From Deltaproteobacteria bacterium (lineage in GTDB: Bacteria > Bdellovibrionota_C > UBA2361 > SZUA-149 > JADLFC01): 32,532 nt of DNA. The stretch lies in NCBI GenBank assembly GCA_020845775.1, contig JADLFC010000036.1, positions 1 to 32,532 of the forward strand, given 5' to 3'. Below, piece after piece: positions 1 to 32,532 of this stretch (position 1 is its first letter; every line of letters starts with the position of its first letter). The notes beneath the pieces are model-generated. The model was not told the origin of the DNA, did not search any database, and worked only from the letters and a program-made list of their open reading frames with translations. The translations under genes and the position numbers were made by a program.

Positions 1-211
1 CAGAATCCTTAGCAGTTATAATGAGATGCACATGGCTTCCCTCAAAGACATAGTGATGAAGTATAACCTTATCATCCCTCTGCACACGAGCTAGTATGCC
101 CTCGATAATTGCACGCATGTACATAGTACAGCAAAAAGGCAAACCTCTTCGCGCGCGGAATGATATCCCGTATAAAGTATTAGATTTTATCAACCGTGGT
201 GCTCTAGGCAT
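1..211 (-). CDS. Probable HUH/Y1 (RAYT or IS200-like) transposase, N-terminal fragment
   Basis: Seventy codons are visible on the minus strand from an ATG at 211 (in-frame stop TAA three codons upstream); the gene runs off the left edge. The protein begins MPRAPRLIKS and continues through an RGLPF segment to HHYVFEGSHVHLIITAKD. The His-hydrophobic-His core (H60-V-H62), followed by a beta strand, is what the metal-binding HUH motif of Y1 single-strand transposases (Pfam Y1_Tnp, including REP-associated tyrosine transposases) looks like, and it sits at the residue number usual for RAYTs. These enzymes nick single-stranded DNA next to hairpins. The catalytic tyrosine would lie beyond the window and cannot be checked. 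Upstream pairing with the hairpin repeats of this window is an inference. No strong ribosome binding site is seen. Another small HUH-fold protein is possible. Confidence 0.6.
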   Translation of the reverse strand, partial: MPRAPRLIKSNTLYGISFRARRGLPFCCTMYMRAIIEGILARVQRDDKVILHHYVFEGSHVHLIITAKDS

Positions 212-400
212 ATTTATTTACTTCATTCTTTGCAAAAACGAAACCTGAGTTGTCGAAACTCTTATCGGCAAAATAATTTTCCTTTGTGCAAAGAAAAAAT
301 AAAAACGTTCAGCTAGAATATAGTTACTTTAAGTATTTTAAAGTTAGGCATTGTTGGTATGCACTAATTTGTCGGGGAGGGGGATTGGATTGGAGGCGCC
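212..400. other. Intergenic, AT-rich
   Basis: This stretch lies between the divergently oriented transposase-like start at 211 and the 3' end of the C45-type hydrolase gene at 401. It is AT-rich in its left two thirds. A weak inverted repeat of 7 bp (ACTTTAA...TTAAAGT) lies near 330-350. No gene or clear promoter is recognised. Confidence 0.4.
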
Positions 401-1678
401 TTAGTCGGCGGTCTCTTCGATACCTGTAATAAGAGCCTTTTTGAGGTCAAAGAAGGAATATGATTCACTGGCTGCCCAATTCCCTTTGTCTCGCGCGTTG
501 CTAACCCAAAACTGCAATTTTGAGGGCAAATAAATCACGTTCTGGAAATTCGACTTCATTGCGAATTCTGGGATCAGAGTGTCTTGCAATAGATCGCAAC
601 TAATTTTGCCATGGCTCATGCTAAGCATTTCGGCCATTTTCTCGTTATAATGCCCGCCATACACGACATCGGAGATTGCAGGCAAATGCTCCTCGCCATC
701 GCGGACTTCCTGTCCGGCACTAGAAGTCTTAAAGCGATCTCTATCCTTAATGAAGAGCTTAGAGGACTTTGTCTTGCCATCGCTAATCAAGAAAACAAAT
801 GAATTCGTGCCAATGCTTTCCTTTAATATTAACTCAGCTTCACCAAGACTAGACGCTTGGCTTAGGACATCGCGCAATAAAAATGGCATCGGCCTCCCGC
901 GCAGCGTCTCGTTCGGCGGATCTCCATATCCCATTTCTCCAAGCGTTATCCCCTCAGCATTCATTCCAGATACCGCCCCTAGGAAACCTACCCAACCTAT
1001 GTTAGCAGATGGTACTCCATTTTCGGGAATGTTAACCGTAATAAGCGGGTATTCGTGCAGCTTGGAAATTCTGTGCAATCCCCAATCCAGAATGCGCACA
1101 ACATACATCTCGCCATCGACAGTCGAAGCACCAGTCATCGAGAAGTTGCTACAAGAAGTGCCGAGATCACCCGCCATCATCTGCTTAATAACGCCCTTAA
1201 TTTGCTTTTTCCCTCCCCATTCGCCAAGCTCCGGCAAAATATGAAGGTGGTGAATCATGGCTAGAGGTAGGCGCGAACCATGGGCTAAACCGTGCATCTC
1301 CTCAATATACTCCGCAGGAATAAAGGGCTGCATGCGCTCATAGGCCTCAGCAAATAACTCATCGAAGTGAAATTTCTCCTGAGCAGTCTTGTAAAGGTAA
1401 CCGAAATTGTCCTGAATTTCTTTTCTTAAAAGTGCGCCGTGTTGATAGCCCCTCTCGTAAGGCGAGCCGCTCACGTAAAGAACTCGCACTCGCTTATCCC
1501 CGGTCCATTCAAGCCTCGCCTTACTTAAAATTTGCTTTTCTTGCACCAGCGAACGAATGTAGTCGCTGCGAACTAAAACATGCCAAGGATCAATCCTCCA
1601 ATAGCTACAACCACTAGTTGCGAGCGAGACAACAAAACAACCCAACATGGCTAGTACGGCTAACCTAACTCCTAGCAT
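401..1678 (-). CDS. C45/AAT-type Ntn-hydrolase, predicted lipoprotein
   Basis: The 425-residue product has an N-terminal hydrophobic segment ending in a lipobox-like LATSGC, so Cys24 would be lipidated. The body resembles the acyl-CoA:6-aminopenicillanate acyltransferase (AAT, peptidase C45) and related choloylglycine-hydrolase-like Ntn hydrolases. The family features seen are the GSPYERGYQHG segment (about 71-81), the GTSCSNF motif with a candidate nucleophile Cys176 exposed by self-cleavage, and the following VDGEMYVVRILDW strand pair. In that family the Cys becomes the new N-terminal nucleophile and hydrolyses or transfers amide-linked acyl groups. The substrate cannot be told from sequence. 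As a lipoprotein it should act at the periplasmic face of a membrane. It starts with ATG at 1678 with a weak ribosome binding site and stands alone; a three-hairpin repeat lies in the divergent gap to lpxK. Membership of the fold is fairly sure, the activity is not. Confidence 0.75.
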   Translation of the reverse strand: MLGVRLAVLAMLGCFVVSLATSGCSYWRIDPWHVLVRSDYIRSLVQEKQILSKARLEWTGDKRVRVLYVSGSPYERGYQHGALLRKEIQDNFGYLYKTAQEKFHFDELFAEAYERMQPFIPAEYIEEMHGLAHGSRLPLAMIHHLHILPELGEWGGKKQIKGVIKQMMAGDLGTSCSNFSMTGASTVDGEMYVVRILDWGLHRISKLHEYPLITVNIPENGVPSANIGWVGFLGAVSGMNAEGITLGEMGYGDPPNETLRGRPMPFLLRDVLSQASSLGEAELILKESIGTNSFVFLISDGKTKSSKLFIKDRDRFKTSSAGQEVRDGEEHLPAISDVVYGGHYNEKMAEMLSMSHGKISCDLLQDTLIPEFAMKSNFQNVIYLPSKLQFWVSNARDKGNWAASESYSFFDLKKALITGIEETAD

Positions 1679-1745
1679 AAAAAAACCTAGTGAAAATCTT
1701 ACATTAAAGTTATTATACCGCAGAACTGTTTTATGTTGAAGGATT

Positions 1746-1869
1746 TATAGCATTTACAAAAATCCTTTTTGTAAATGCTATAAACAGCAAGTGCGTAAGC
1801 ACTTGCCAATAAACAACAAATACCGTTTCCAAAAAGTAAGTTAAATATTTTACTTTTTGGAAACGGTAT
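1746..1869 (-). repeat. Three-hairpin repeat, copy A (minus orientation)
   Basis: On the plus strand the order is H1 (1746-1782, 17-bp perfect stem, loop TCC), H2 (1787-1806, GCAAGTGC/GCACTTGC, loop GTAA) and H3 (1820-1869, 20-bp perfect stem starting ATACCGTTTCC, 10-nt loop GTTAAATATT). It lies in the divergent gap between the C45-type gene and lpxK. With copies aligned by H2 and its spacers, the loops of H1 and H3 are inverted here relative to copies C, D and E. No clear target-site duplication is visible. Confidence 0.95.
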
Positions 1870-1925
1870 ATTAGCGCTCTGTTTGTTATTGTTAATCTGT
1901 AATATCAATTAAATTTGGGTTTTTA

Positions 1926-6124: not shown

Positions 6125-6172
6125 TGGCGGTTTTTTTTAAAAAGTCCCTATAACCCTTGGAGAAAGCAAGCT

Positions 6173-6250
6173 ATACCGTTTCCAAAAAGTAACTTAAATA
6201 TTTTACTTCCTGCAAACAGTATTTTTTGTTCACTGGCGATTGCTGAATAG
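6173..6250 (+). repeat. Three-hairpin repeat, decayed copy B
   Basis: Positions 6173-6222 match H3. The left arm is identical to the consensus, the loop differs at one base (CTTAAATATT), and the right arm has four substitutions that break the stem. The following bases to about 6250 resemble the H3-H2 spacer and the outer half of H2 with the middle deleted, and H1 is not recognisable. The orientation (H3 first) is that of copies C and E. It sits between the FliK-like gene and the cation transporter gene, just before the FliK-like stop codon. Confidence 0.8.
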
Positions 6251-6256
6251 GAGAGC

Positions 6257-7678
6257 TTATGCCATGGCCAAGAATCTGTCGAGAGTCCTTGAGAACCAGG
6301 CTGTAGAGTTTTCGGGGTTTGGGTTCGAGCTAGCAATAAATTCAGTTTTTTCGAAACCGCTGCTTCGCAATATAGCCGACAAAAAGTCTAGCTGTTCTGC
6401 TAGAAATTCAGCTTTTTCTTCGTCATCCAGTGTAAATCTTACGAGAATCTCATGCTTGCGGTGGGCTATGTCGACTATGGTTTGCCCCAGCGTGGGAAGT
6501 GTTAGATTGATGTGAATGTGCCGATAAGCTTCTCCGTTGGATAGCCCTTCGTCGTGGTGGGTACTGCCGTCTGAGCTCTTTTGCTTGCTACCTTTGTTTT
6601 GACGGTCTGGATCTATTATCACTTCGCCATGAGATATGAAATTCTGAAAGAGAAATGGAAACATGATTAAGGCTGGCTCTCCGAGTGCCTGCATCAAAGG
6701 ATTTAGTCTATTTAGGGTCTCTTGGGTATTGGCGAGTTGCTCAAGGCCTAGGATTGCCTGCTTGAATTGGGCCTCGCTCATGCTTGCAGAGGTGGTAGTA
6801 AGTTTGGCGTTGTTGTGAAGAAATTCTTCGAGCTGCGAAAAAGCGGCCTGGATATGCAGCCTCGCGTGCTCTTCGTTTTGGGTGGCGGTTTTTAAGTCTC
6901 GCAGGACATTTTGAAGGACTTGCGCGTCTTTTGAATTTAGTGTTTCTTTTTGGGAAAAGTCTTTTGATATGACATCTAAAATATGCTTGAGATGTTTGCT
7001 TATGGATGAAAAATCGCTTGCTTGGCCTAGCATGGCTCGTAGTTCAGCTTCTAGTGCTGTAAGCAAAGAGCCTGGTAAAGGTTGTAGAGTGCCAAAGGGC
7101 GAATTCAACGAAGTGGTTTGCGTTTGGTCTAGTAGGCTTTTAAGCCAGCTCGAAAAGGTTCCGTTTGTAAGTTTGAATAAATTGGCGAGGAGCGCGTTTG
7201 AGTCATAGAGCTCGGCATTGTTAGAAATGTTTCCCATCAGGCTTTTAAGAAGTTCTGGTCTCCAGGCGGAGGAATCGAGGTTCATCGGAAGAAGGAGCGA
7301 GGATTGAAGTTTAAGATGGTTTAAACTAGCGGTACTCAAGCTGTTAGCTATCTCGTTTGCAAGTTGAGTTGCTAGGTCTATGCGAGAACTGGTAGTTGGG
7401 CCTTGAGCCTGTAGAATTTTTAGCAAAACTTGCGGTCCAATTTCGGCAACTTGCGCGAGGATTTTCGAGCCAGCCTTAATGTTTAGTGGTAAGTTAGCCT
7501 GAACTAGTTGGCCATTAATACTTATTATCCCGCGGTTGCCAGGAATATTGCGACGAACGCCGAAATTTACTACGTCTCCAACTCCTACTGTCGGCATTGT
7601 AGGCGAGAGCACAGCAGATCGCTCTATCGCGATAGCCGCCGTTGCTTTAGGATCGGAATTTATTACGTGCGTTGCCAA
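6257..7678 (-). CDS. FliK-like protein (flagellar hook-length control C-terminal domain)
   Basis: The 473-residue product has a long, low-complexity, Ser/Leu/Gln/Asn-rich middle. Near the C terminus (about 385-450), LPTLGQTIVDIAHRKHEILVRF and EFLAEQLDFLSAILRSSGF resemble the Flg_hook (PF02120) domain of FliK, which switches secretion specificity when the hook is complete. The N-terminal part (about 30-90) contains an SH3-like stretch (GIISINGQLVQANLPLNIKAG) followed by KILAQVAEIGPQVLLKIL, also seen in FliK-like proteins. No other flagellar gene lies in the window, so a link to flagella or another type III export system is inference. The first available start is TTG at 7678 without a clear ribosome binding site; an ATG at 7597 is an alternative. 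A remnant of the hairpin repeat lies just after its stop. Confidence 0.6.
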   Translation of the reverse strand: MATHVINSDPKATAAIAIERSAVLSPTMPTVGVGDVVNFGVRRNIPGNRGIISINGQLVQANLPLNIKAGSKILAQVAEIGPQVLLKILQAQGPTTSSRIDLATQLANEIANSLSTASLNHLKLQSSLLLPMNLDSSAWRPELLKSLMGNISNNAELYDSNALLANLFKLTNGTFSSWLKSLLDQTQTTSLNSPFGTLQPLPGSLLTALEAELRAMLGQASDFSSISKHLKHILDVISKDFSQKETLNSKDAQVLQNVLRDLKTATQNEEHARLHIQAAFSQLEEFLHNNAKLTTTSASMSEAQFKQAILGLEQLANTQETLNRLNPLMQALGEPALIMFPFLFQNFISHGEVIIDPDRQNKGSKQKSSDGSTHHDEGLSNGEAYRHIHINLTLPTLGQTIVDIAHRKHEILVRFTLDDEEKAEFLAEQLDFLSAILRSSGFEKTEFIASSNPNPENSTAWFSRTLDRFLAMA

Positions 7679-25957: not shown

Positions 25958-27262
25958 ATGTCGCACTCGCTGTCTAGCGTCACCATAGAGGATGTTCCTG
26001 GCATATTAGAGGCGGGGCCGCTAGAAGTCTCGAAGAAGCTAAAGCTATTTTTGTGGCTTCTCGTAGCAATGGGAATTGCAGTTTTTGTTTTGGGCATTAA
26101 TGGGGAGAACTCTAGGCTTGCGTGGATTTCATTTCATCTCAATTTAGTTTTTTGGATATTTCTGTCTGCCGCCGGAGCTGGTTTTTCTGCGGTGTTTAGC
26201 ATTTGCAATGCCCAGTGGGCGAGGCCTGTTGAGCGCCTGTTTCAGTCATGTGTTGTGTTTTTGCCAATCGGCATCTTGCTATTGCTAGTATTGTATTTTG
26301 GTCACGAGCAGCTTTTCGTATGGGCTACAGAGCCAGTTCATGGCAAGGAACTATGGCTAGAGTCTAAGTTCTTATTCATACGCGATATCATAGGCGCTTC
26401 TATATTGCTGTTTCTATTGTGCCGAGTCATTTACTATTCGTTGCGAGCGGATTTTCTAGCGATTAGGGGTGGAATTGTAAAACTCGATGACTCTCGTGCT
26501 AAACGATGGTTGGACAAGCGCTTTGATAATTACGCTAAGTTTTCTGCGGGTGCGTTGGACGTTCGCGACGAGATTGCGAGGGCGATGCACAAGCGCGGCC
26601 GATATTCCCCTGTTGTAGTTATATGTTATGCAGTAATTATGTCTATGCTGGCATTCGATCTCATGATGTCGGTCGACCCTCACTGGTATTCTACTTTGTA
26701 CGGCGCCTTTTTGTTTATGACAGGCGTTTATTTGGCGTTTGCTTGGATTTCTGTAGTAATTGCTCTCGCGCGAGAATGGCATCCGCTTTATAGAAAGAAA
26801 ATCGATAGGCGCTGTTTGCATGATGTTGGCAAACTGCTGTTTGGTTTTGGAATATTTTGGGCCTATCTTTTTTGGAGCCATTATTTGCCAATCTGGTATG
26901 GAAATATGCCAGAGGAGACGGCTTGGGTAATCGTTAGACTTAGAGAGCAGCCGTGGCACGGTTTGGCGTGGATGGTTTTTGGATCTGCTTTTATCGTGCC
27001 TTTCTTGTTGGGATTAAGCCGAGATGTAAAGCAAATGCCTAGCTTGCTCATGGCTACGGGTTTGATAGTTATTGTTGGCCTGTGGCTTCAGCAATACGTT
27101 CTCTTTGTCCCTACATTATTTCCTACGGACATTCCTATAGGCCTGAGAGATATAGCTATTTCGCTGGCATTTGGCGCTGCTTTTCTGCTTTCGCAGCTAG
27201 CGTTTTTGCGGCGGGTGCCTTTGGTTGCCTTCGGCGATTTTTATATAAGAAAAGCCGATTAG
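25958..27262 (+). CDS. actF: ACIII subunit ActF, polytopic quinol:cytochrome c oxidoreductase subunit
   Basis: ActF is the second NrfD-like membrane subunit of ACIII, thought to hold a proton half-channel. The 434-residue product shows about ten membrane helices, beginning LFLWLLVAMGIAVFVLGI (30-47). Family marks are HLNLVFWIFLSAAGAGFSAVFS (61-82), DLMMSVDPHWYSTLYGAFLF (about 232-251), LLFGFGIFWAYLFWSHYLPIWYGNMPEET and LWLQQYVLFVPTLFP. AAGGAG lies 11 nt before the ATG. It ends the act operon; 70 bp later a three-hairpin repeat begins. No oxidase gene follows. Confidence 0.93.
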   Translation: MSHSLSSVTIEDVPGILEAGPLEVSKKLKLFLWLLVAMGIAVFVLGINGENSRLAWISFHLNLVFWIFLSAAGAGFSAVFSICNAQWARPVERLFQSCVVFLPIGILLLLVLYFGHEQLFVWATEPVHGKELWLESKFLFIRDIIGASILLFLLCRVIYYSLRADFLAIRGGIVKLDDSRAKRWLDKRFDNYAKFSAGALDVRDEIARAMHKRGRYSPVVVICYAVIMSMLAFDLMMSVDPHWYSTLYGAFLFMTGVYLAFAWISVVIALAREWHPLYRKKIDRRCLHDVGKLLFGFGIFWAYLFWSHYLPIWYGNMPEETAWVIVRLREQPWHGLAWMVFGSAFIVPFLLGLSRDVKQMPSLLMATGLIVIVGLWLQQYVLFVPTLFPTDIPIGLRDIAISLAFGAAFLLSQLAFLRRVPLVAFGDFYIRKAD

Positions 27263-27331
27263 GCTAGCTCTGCGTTTTGCAAACATATTATTTTTTGTCT
27301 TGCGCTGCGGTCGCTGCTCGTCATAAATTCT

Positions 27332-27457
27332 ATACCGTTCCTAAAGAGTAAGTTAAATATTTTACTTTTTAGGAACGGTGTTTGTTGTTTGCTGGCAAGC
27401 ACTTACGTGCTTGCTGGTTATTCCATTTACAAAAATGCTTTTTGTAAATGGAATAAC
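27332..27457 (+). repeat. Three-hairpin repeat, copy C (plus orientation)
   Basis: H3 is 27332-27381 (20-bp stem with two wobble pairs, loop GTTAAATATT), H2 27395-27414 (GCAAGCAC/GTGCTTGC, loop TTAC) and H1 27417-27457 (19-bp stem, loop TGC). This copy has diverged from A, D and E, but the changes are paired: H2 has two compensatory pairs, H3 has TCC to CCT matched by GGA to AGG, and H1 has TATTCC matched by GGAATA. It lies between actF and the SPOR gene. Confidence 0.95.
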
Positions 27458-27509
27458 TGCGTGTAATGTGTTCTGTTCGCTTCAGTTATAATTTTTAGAG
27501 GTGACTGTT

Positions 27510-28598
27510 ATGGCTTCATATGTAGGGGGAGAGTCTGGCAATAGGAGCCGCAGCTCCAGCAGTAGGCAGTCGGAGAGAACTCAAAGGAGAGAAATTCGCC
27601 TTACATTGGGGCAAGTTTCTATTTTTTGGGCTGTTATCGCTGGTTCCATGGTAGCGGTGTTTCTTTTTGGCCTTTTTGCGGGGCGCGAAAGGGGAATTCA
27701 ACTGGCACTTGAAGGTGACGCTTCGGTTGGCATGCGTTTCCCTGTGCACTCTAACGATGCGGATAGGAGTGGTGCGTCAGTCGTTGCGCAAGGAAAGGGT
27801 AGCCAAGCCGATAGCGGCATACTCCTTGCTAGCTTAGAGAATGCTGCTGAAGGCACTTCGTCGGCTACTGATGATGCTGGGGGCATCGCCAATGCACCCA
27901 GTGATCGGCTAAACGTCACTGGAGTTTCTCCGGTAAGTGAGGCTGTGCAGAAATTAGAGGCAGATGTCGGGTTTGGCCAAAAGCTTGCTTCTGATGTCGT
28001 GAAGGCAGGCACTGACGCCACTTTGCAAGCTACTTCGGATGGCAAAGCTATCGACAATCGCCTTTTAAACAGAGAAGCGCTAAATCCGCCTCAAAAGAGG
28101 CCGATTACCACTCAGTTAAATGCTGAGGCAAAGAAAATTGAGCTAGCTGCTGAAAAGAGCAAGGAAACTTTTTCAAGCATATCCATAAAGGACGCGCCGC
28201 GAGCAAGGTTAGGGGACATAAAGTCAAGCTCTCCGCTAACATCTGTGCCACCGAAGAATGTGGAAAAGTCTAACTTGGTGGTCAAGAAGGAGGTTAGAAA
28301 AGAACCTACTTCTAGGGCGGTTCAAAGCACTAAAGCTCTGTCAAATAAGCCGCTTGCGTCGGGGTGGTATGTCCAAGTTGCGGCAAAGACTAGTGACGCT
28401 GAGGCTATGGGACTTAGTAAGCGAGTTGGGAACTTAGGTTTAAGTACCACGGTCGAGCAAGCTACAGTTAAGGGGACGAGGTATTATAGAGTATTGGTGG
28501 GGCCTTTTAAAAGTCGCGAAGGCGCGCAGTCTGCAGAGAGGAAGATTAAGTCATCGCGAGTTGTTGACAACATGCCATTTTTAAAGAGAGTGTCGTGA
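27510..28598 (+). CDS. SPOR-domain membrane protein
   Basis: The 362-residue protein is type II in layout. It has a short basic cytoplasmic start, one membrane helix (about 35-56, IFWAVIAGSMVAVFLFGLFAG), a long Ala/Ser/Lys-rich disordered periplasmic linker and a C-terminal SPOR domain (about 285-362; GWYVQVAAK, TRYYRVLVGPFKSREGAQ). SPOR domains bind denuded glycan strands at the division septum, so a role in cell division or envelope remodelling is likely; it resembles FtsN/DedD in layout. ATG 27510 is preferred over GTG 27501 because AGAGG lies 9 nt upstream. The gene is bracketed by hairpin repeat copies C and D in opposite orientation; copy D begins 2 bases after the stop codon. Confidence 0.87.
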   Translation: MASYVGGESGNRSRSSSSRQSERTQRREIRLTLGQVSIFWAVIAGSMVAVFLFGLFAGRERGIQLALEGDASVGMRFPVHSNDADRSGASVVAQGKGSQADSGILLASLENAAEGTSSATDDAGGIANAPSDRLNVTGVSPVSEAVQKLEADVGFGQKLASDVVKAGTDATLQATSDGKAIDNRLLNREALNPPQKRPITTQLNAEAKKIELAAEKSKETFSSISIKDAPRARLGDIKSSSPLTSVPPKNVEKSNLVVKKEVRKEPTSRAVQSTKALSNKPLASGWYVQVAAKTSDAEAMGLSKRVGNLGLSTTVEQATVKGTRYYRVLVGPFKSREGAQSAERKIKSSRVVDNMPFLKRVS

Positions 28599-28599
28599 T

Positions 28600-28723
28600 T
28601 ATACCATTTGCAAAAAGGATTTTTGTAAATGGTATAAACAGCAAGTGCGTAACCACTTGCCAATAAACAACAAATACCGTTTCCAAAAAGTAAAATATTT
28701 AACTTACTTTTTGGAAACGGTAT
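28600..28723 (-). repeat. Three-hairpin repeat, copy D (minus orientation)
   Basis: On the plus strand the order is H1 (28600-28636, 17-bp stem with one wobble, loop GGA), H2 (28641-28660, one mismatch next to the loop) and H3 (28674-28723, 20-bp perfect stem, loop AATATTTAAC). It fills the gap between convergent SPOR and hpt genes, starting just after the SPOR stop, so its transcript could also act as a terminator in both directions. Confidence 0.95.
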
Positions 28724-28753
28724 ATCAGTGCACTCGCGTAGGCGACGCTTAAT

Positions 28754-32316: not shown

Positions 32317-32408
32317 AAATAAATCTAGACCGTTCTACTAGCAATTGCTACTGTCGATCAAAACGCTCTACGTCCGATCTCTTAGGCGCATACATAGTTT
32401 TGGTTGCT

Positions 32409-32532
32409 ATACCGTTTCCAAAAAGTAAGTTAAATATTTTACTTTTTGGAAACGGTATTTGTTGTTTATTGGCAAGTGCTTACGCACTTGCTGTTTATAG
32501 CATTTACAAAAATCCTTTTTGTAAATGCTATA
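32409..32532 (+). repeat. Three-hairpin repeat, copy E (plus orientation)
   Basis: H3 is 32409-32458 (20-bp perfect stem, loop GTTAAATATT), H2 32472-32491 (GCAAGTGC/GCACTTGC, loop TTAC) and H1 32496-32532 (17-bp perfect stem, loop TCC), which ends exactly at the window edge. It lies upstream of topA. Its H2 stem and both terminal stems match copy A, but the loops of H1 and H3 are inverted relative to that copy. Confidence 0.95.

Follow-up and report, generated by a model that had tools for sequence, protein, structure and literature searches.

The gene at the left edge of the analysed DNA very probably encodes a RAYT-like enzyme that belongs to a mobile unit of its own, and the hairpin repeats on the same contig are most likely separate from this unit and lie close to it by happenstance. 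The window, which is the whole stretch of DNA that was analysed, is an entire contig of 32,532 bases (G000:C36) from an assembly of 2.57 Mb in 189 contigs. The gene is cut off at the contig end, and since the window is the entire contig, the assembly contains nothing to the left of the window edge. The predicted features of the transposase unit in the window are as follows:

2..211, minus strand: first 70 codons of the gene for a RAYT-like transposase of the Y1 (HUH) kind, with an ATG start and open at the window edge
26..34, minus strand: His-Val-His (HUH) motif, residues 60-62
212..372, minus strand: 5' non-coding part and left end, with homology common to contigs C86, C11 and C92
354..370, minus strand: terminal motif of the left end, AAATTAGTGCATACCAA, lying about 140 nt upstream of the ATG

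The 70-residue translation of the reading frame at 2..211 on the minus strand (MPRAPRLIKSNTLYGISFRARRGLPFCCTMYMRAIIEGILARVQRDDKVILHHYVFEGSHVHLIITAKDS) gave no match in a Pfam search when used alone, and the NCBIfam model REP_Tyr_transpos matched this fragment weakly, at 13.7 bits; with the RAYT equivalog model NF047646, the fragment scored 13.1 bits. The window copy ends before the position of the catalytic-type Tyr. The closest paralogue in the same genome, located on contig C11 (2-907, minus strand, 302 residues), was 83% identical across all 70 residues and extended through the catalytic-type Tyr. In a family alignment of 28 sequences, among them the C11 paralogue and 26 other homologues, the only invariant columns were the two His residues of the HUH motif; Tyr120, Asn124 and Pro125 (YxYxNP) were nearly invariant, and the Tyr was present in the proteins of both C11 and C62. 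Because the paralogue is highly similar and runs through the Tyr, and the His residues are invariant, the window fragment is considered to be more than a chance occurrence. The first-pass annotation had described this gene as an N-terminal region with His-Val-His in a Y1 context, and the paralogue and the alignment confirm that description. The window gene is the start, cut off by the contig end, of a RAYT-like Y1 transposase that would be about 330 aa in length.

Profile searches across the family gave graded scores. Pfam Y1_Tnp (PF01797) was matched by 15 of the 28 family members at E<=0.01. A more distant paralogue on contig C62 (P0003) scored 33.7 bits at a cut-off of 23, and neither the C11 protein (P0002) nor the window fragment reached the cut-off. 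With REP_Tyr_transpos, P0003 scored 57 bits and P0002 22 bits; with the equivalog model NF047646, for which the cut-off is 80 bits, the C62 protein reached 58.7 bits and the C11 protein 23.9 bits. P0002 was below every curated cut-off. Since the scores are under the curated RAYT equivalog cut-off, the enzyme is classed as RAYT-like and not as a strict RAYT. The same genome also has a truncated copy of the gene, on C86, and pieces of the C-terminal part on three contigs (C114, C85 and C6). The assembly contains no complete Y1 gene, as all copies are cut at contig ends or, in C86, internally deleted. A second Y1 lineage is represented by the C-terminal pieces on C6 (L118, C6:6744-6893) and C85 (L215), which are 93% identical across the gene end and possibly come from a gene of the C62 type (L155). 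Upstream of the C62 gene, we observed tandem CTGGAACGCCGTTACTCC-TTTTTTT repeats; the motif CTGGAACGCCGTTACTCC was considered as an abundant REP and rejected, with 5 matches at <=3 mismatches in 0.86 Mb.

The family profile had a single match in the PDB, the TnpA-REP structure 4er8, with an E-value of 1.9e-10 (hmmsearch). Structural comparison was performed with a model of a relative (L183) in place of the window protein; L183 is the closest full relative, is 52% identical to P0002, comes from a MAG labelled Bdellovibrionales bacterium HKST-UBA28 and was found in a search that used six closer rows of the alignment. The AlphaFold model of L183 showed a pLDDT of 86.5, and a Foldseek search with this model returned 4er8, a REP-bound RAYT, as the first match (TMt 0.72), followed by IS608 and ISDra2. 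The profile match and the modelled fold therefore support TnpA-REP, rather than plain IS200, as the nearest relative in sequence and fold, and the initial guess of a RAYT was right in kind.

The ends of the unit were derived from separate contigs and the C86 derivative, and no intact unit carrying its two ends was seen. The left-end region of the window was 90% identical to C86, 75% identical to C11 and, for the end only, 88% identical to C92. Since this homology stops at about window position 372, the left end was defined there. The terminal motif of the left end occupies the place that corresponds to that of the REP-like motif CTRGTGNGYGCCAACT beside homologous genes in the relative G024. 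In both C11 and C86, the left end carries a diverged CTRGTGNGYGCCAACT with three mismatches, about 140 nt before the start and oriented as it is in G024; the chance of such a match is 0.007 per 200 nt. The window motif has one further base difference. As an abundant REP of its own genome, the left-end motif was rejected, with only about 3-4 true copies. The right end, TACTCCCCAGCGCATTC, was identical in C114, where it follows the C-terminus, and in C86, where only about 30 codons of the gene stand immediately before it and nearly all of the gene is missing. C86 is thus an internal-deletion derivative of the transposase unit. The inverted motif seen in G024 was absent from the right end in the window genome (C114).

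In G024, CTRGTGNGYGCCAACT was found near the family genes, downstream and inverted in 4 of 4 cases and upstream and direct in 2 of 4. Inverted CTRGTGNGYGCCAACT doublets of about 65 bp, which are REPIN-like, were present at two other G024 loci (C49 and C50). These doublets have the form CTGGTGGGTGCCAACTC ... GAGTTGGGGCACACCAG and are repeated in L216 (G024:C49:93500-97529) and L217 (G024:C50:600-3200), one of them adjoining the end of an Rhs-like gene. By analogy with G024, the likely substrate of the enzyme would be a diverged CTRGTGNGYGCCAACT-type motif and not the hairpin repeat.

This RAYT-like type is widespread in the Bdellovibrionota-like class. The enzyme family was found in 39 of the 115 other genomes searched, and the relative G042 had up to 17 matches. 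An unlikely, although not negligible, alternative is that the fragment comes from a regular insertion sequence that moves itself, of the IS200/IS605 or a TIRYT-like kind, and not from a single-copy domesticated RAYT. This one genome has several related units, with N-termini on C36, C11 and C62 and C-termini on C114, C6 and C85, and the near identity of the C6 and C85 pieces, the number of G042 matches and the C86 derivative all agree with self-mobility. This alternative is opposed by the closeness to TnpA-REP in sequence and fold, by the REPIN-like doublets of G024 and by the IS200 transposase model NF033573, which gave C62 25.7 bits, where its cut-off is 55, and did not have the other proteins among its matches. 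In the favoured reading of a RAYT-like enzyme in its own mobile unit, the unit would be of low copy number and have a right end and a left end of its own, the left one about 160 nt ahead of the gene. By homology, the enzyme would cleave single strands at the terminal motif of its unit; the two His residues would hold a metal, Tyr120 would act as the nucleophile, and the enzyme may, as expected from its family, mobilise the unit itself as well as short derivatives. Four points speak against this reading: the lack of an intact unit in the assembly, the low scores of P0002, the right end without the inverted motif, and a left-end remnant on C92 close to a hairpin element.

The window also contains hairpin repeats, which are separate from the transposase unit and are located as follows:

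1744..1870, plus strand: copy A, three hairpins, 127 bp
6172..6276, minus strand: degenerate copy
27331..27457, minus strand: copy
28598..28724, plus strand: copy
32408..32532, minus strand: copy at the right contig end, with the assembly break in the repeat

Both ends of the contig thus lie in repeats, the transposase unit at the left (from window position 1) and a hairpin element at the right. The gene between two of the hairpin copies (27501-28598) encodes a SPOR domain and was rejected as a transposase. Two further reading frames, at 401-1678 (minus strand, 425 aa) and 25958-27262 (plus strand, 434 aa), had no Pfam match at E<=0.001.

For the repeats, 863 kb, a third of the genome, were read directly and were partly chosen for holding copies, while statements on the whole genome come from genome-wide searches. 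This sample contained 54 full elements and 24 solo or partial hairpins. Contigs chosen regardless of matches held about 25 full copies per Mb, which extrapolates to about 64 per genome. Because 20 of the 54 full elements reach a contig or stretch end without a gene on one side, the repeat count is partly hidden by assembly breaks. The outer ends resemble TIRs, with TATA[CG]C[AG]TTT[AC]CAAAAAG at both ends and TA at both edges, and the stems are 19 and 20 bp long. The stems covary strongly, with 16 pairs changed on both sides compared with 2.0 in shuffles and 97.3% of cells paired. Among the copies, those of the window included, the H1 and H3 loops are found either way round, as GGA/TCC and as AATATTTAAC/GTTAAATATT (L089, L143-L182). 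Loop inversion and multi-base compensation are described signatures of template switching (PMC8794818), and the flipped loops and covarying stems, which template switching explains best, fit either this process or an inversion of the DNA. Several solo hairpins are H1/H3 chimeras in which the outer arms are retained, as would result from loss of the central part of the 127-bp element via the common CAAAAAG stretch; such chimeras were observed at C1:1731, C22:1610, C116:55393, C28:45564 and C62:12712 (in L113, L168, L145, L167 and L155, respectively).

The hairpin repeats are a palindromic MITE-like family that is most likely separate from the Y1 unit. It is possible, with somewhat less than even probability, that they are TA-targeting MITEs of the DDE type (Correia/IS630-like) whose enzyme was lost or lies outside the assembly. 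The TIR-like ends, the candidate TA duplication at both edges, the internally deleted solos that keep their outer arms and the intergenic placement without orientation bias agree with this origin; however, DDE_3 (PF13358), the sole DDE family searched, was unmatched in the genome, and an end that is itself a hairpin is atypical. No autonomous element was seen between isolated hairpin TIR halves in 0.86 Mb, and a search of the available literature for MITEs in Bdellovibrio found none. It is improbable that the repeats are mainly RNA elements, such as terminators or stability hairpins, that are under selection and are not mobile DNA. The stem covariation and the intergenic location would suit such elements, but copies also lie between divergent genes, full copies in tandem pairs show no orientation preference (8 same, 6 opposite), the loops are inverted, and no Rfam match was found within the window.

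The proposal that the enzyme and the hairpin repeats form a pair, with the repeat as a non-autonomous element, was not supported. Copy A does lie about 1.5 kb from the gene, as had been pointed out, and a random position falls within 1,533 bp of a hairpin element with P = 0.21. This copy is the nearest to the gene, and no hairpin borders the known 5' ends of the family (C36, C11, C62 and the C86 derivative) or its known 3' ends (C114, C6 and C85); the sequences of the known ends and of the hairpins are unrelated. A left-end remnant on C92 (233-272) sits 68 bp from a hairpin element. Co-occurrence was likewise missing: of the 115 other genomes searched, 39 have the enzyme and none has the repeat, and one genome without the enzyme had a 31-bp match to the repeat at chance level. 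This missing co-occurrence carries little weight because RAYTs and REPs co-diverge and the window's own family lies outside the 115 genomes.

A further alternative is that the Y1 enzyme mobilises the hairpin repeats in trans by way of folded H1 and H3, so that its own ends need not match; we regard this as very improbable. Hairpin binding is typical of the fold (4er8), Y1 genes and numerous copies of the hairpin repeat coexist in the genome, a search of it for an IS630/DDE_3 enzyme gave none, and Y1 enzymes associated with TIRs whose families are self-complementary have been described (PMC3733652). Against this, apart from the unbordered gene ends and their unrelated sequences, neither GTAG nor CGTC, the tag that by definition stands at the foot of a REP palindrome (PMC3733652), was present in the 36-copy hairpin consensus. 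Cleavage by TnpA-Sm is severely impaired when the loop is reverse-complemented (PMC8266576), whereas the hairpin loops occur in both orientations. Additionally, the inverted hairpin ends are nearly symmetric, whereas Y1 enzymes of the IS200/IS605 type have substrates that are asymmetric. Equally little credence is given to a new palindromic mobile element in which stems are copied anew and loops change orientation, through template switching or the action of an HUH enzyme on single-stranded DNA, and which one of the long RAYT-like enzymes in this genome mobilises in trans without shared ends.

Under the favoured reading of a RAYT-like enzyme in its own unit, Bdellovibrionota-like genomes have a family of long enzymes (about 330 aa) whose REP-like ends are their own, with REPIN-like doublets in one relative, and the enzyme is kept from being wrongly paired with a high-copy hairpin repeat to which it is unrelated. 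With flipped loops, covarying stems and many sites, the hairpin repeat is itself well suited as a natural test case for template switching in bacteria.

We compared the enzyme and the repeats with known systems. RAYT/TnpA-REP enzymes (E. coli YafM and the Stenotrophomonas RAYT, 4er8) share the HUH motif, the single Tyr and the Y1 fold with the present family, as well as inverted REP-like motifs at the genes and REPIN-like doublets, both of which are seen in the relative G024. In contrast, the present enzyme has about 330 residues compared with about 165, including a long C-terminal part; it scores below the NCBIfam equivalog cut-off, its terminal motif lacks GTAG, and several copies occur per genome. 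In the TIRYT/TIRtron system, the inverted repeats on either side of a tyrosine transposase bear no relation to GTAG REPs (PMC3733652). A Y1 enzyme, inverted terminal motifs without GTAG (in G024) and a small motif family are features in common, although the right end in the window genome has no inverted motif and the GGGGWSAS consensus was not consistently found. IS200/IS605 elements (IS608 and ISDra2) have the same catalytic fold, HUH motif and Tyr, but the present protein is longer, the IS200 model remains under its cut-off, and no tnpB was seen. The hairpin repeats are comparable to Correia-type/IS630 MITEs in being short, with TIR-like TATA ends and TA edges, whereas the genome has no IS630 enzyme and the ends of the repeats are themselves hairpins. 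They are also similar to REP/BIME/REPIN sequences, which are high-copy intergenic palindromes with stem covariation; the differences are that the present repeats lack GTAG/CGTC, have longer stems and contain three hairpins in a fixed 127-bp order, away from the Y1 gene.
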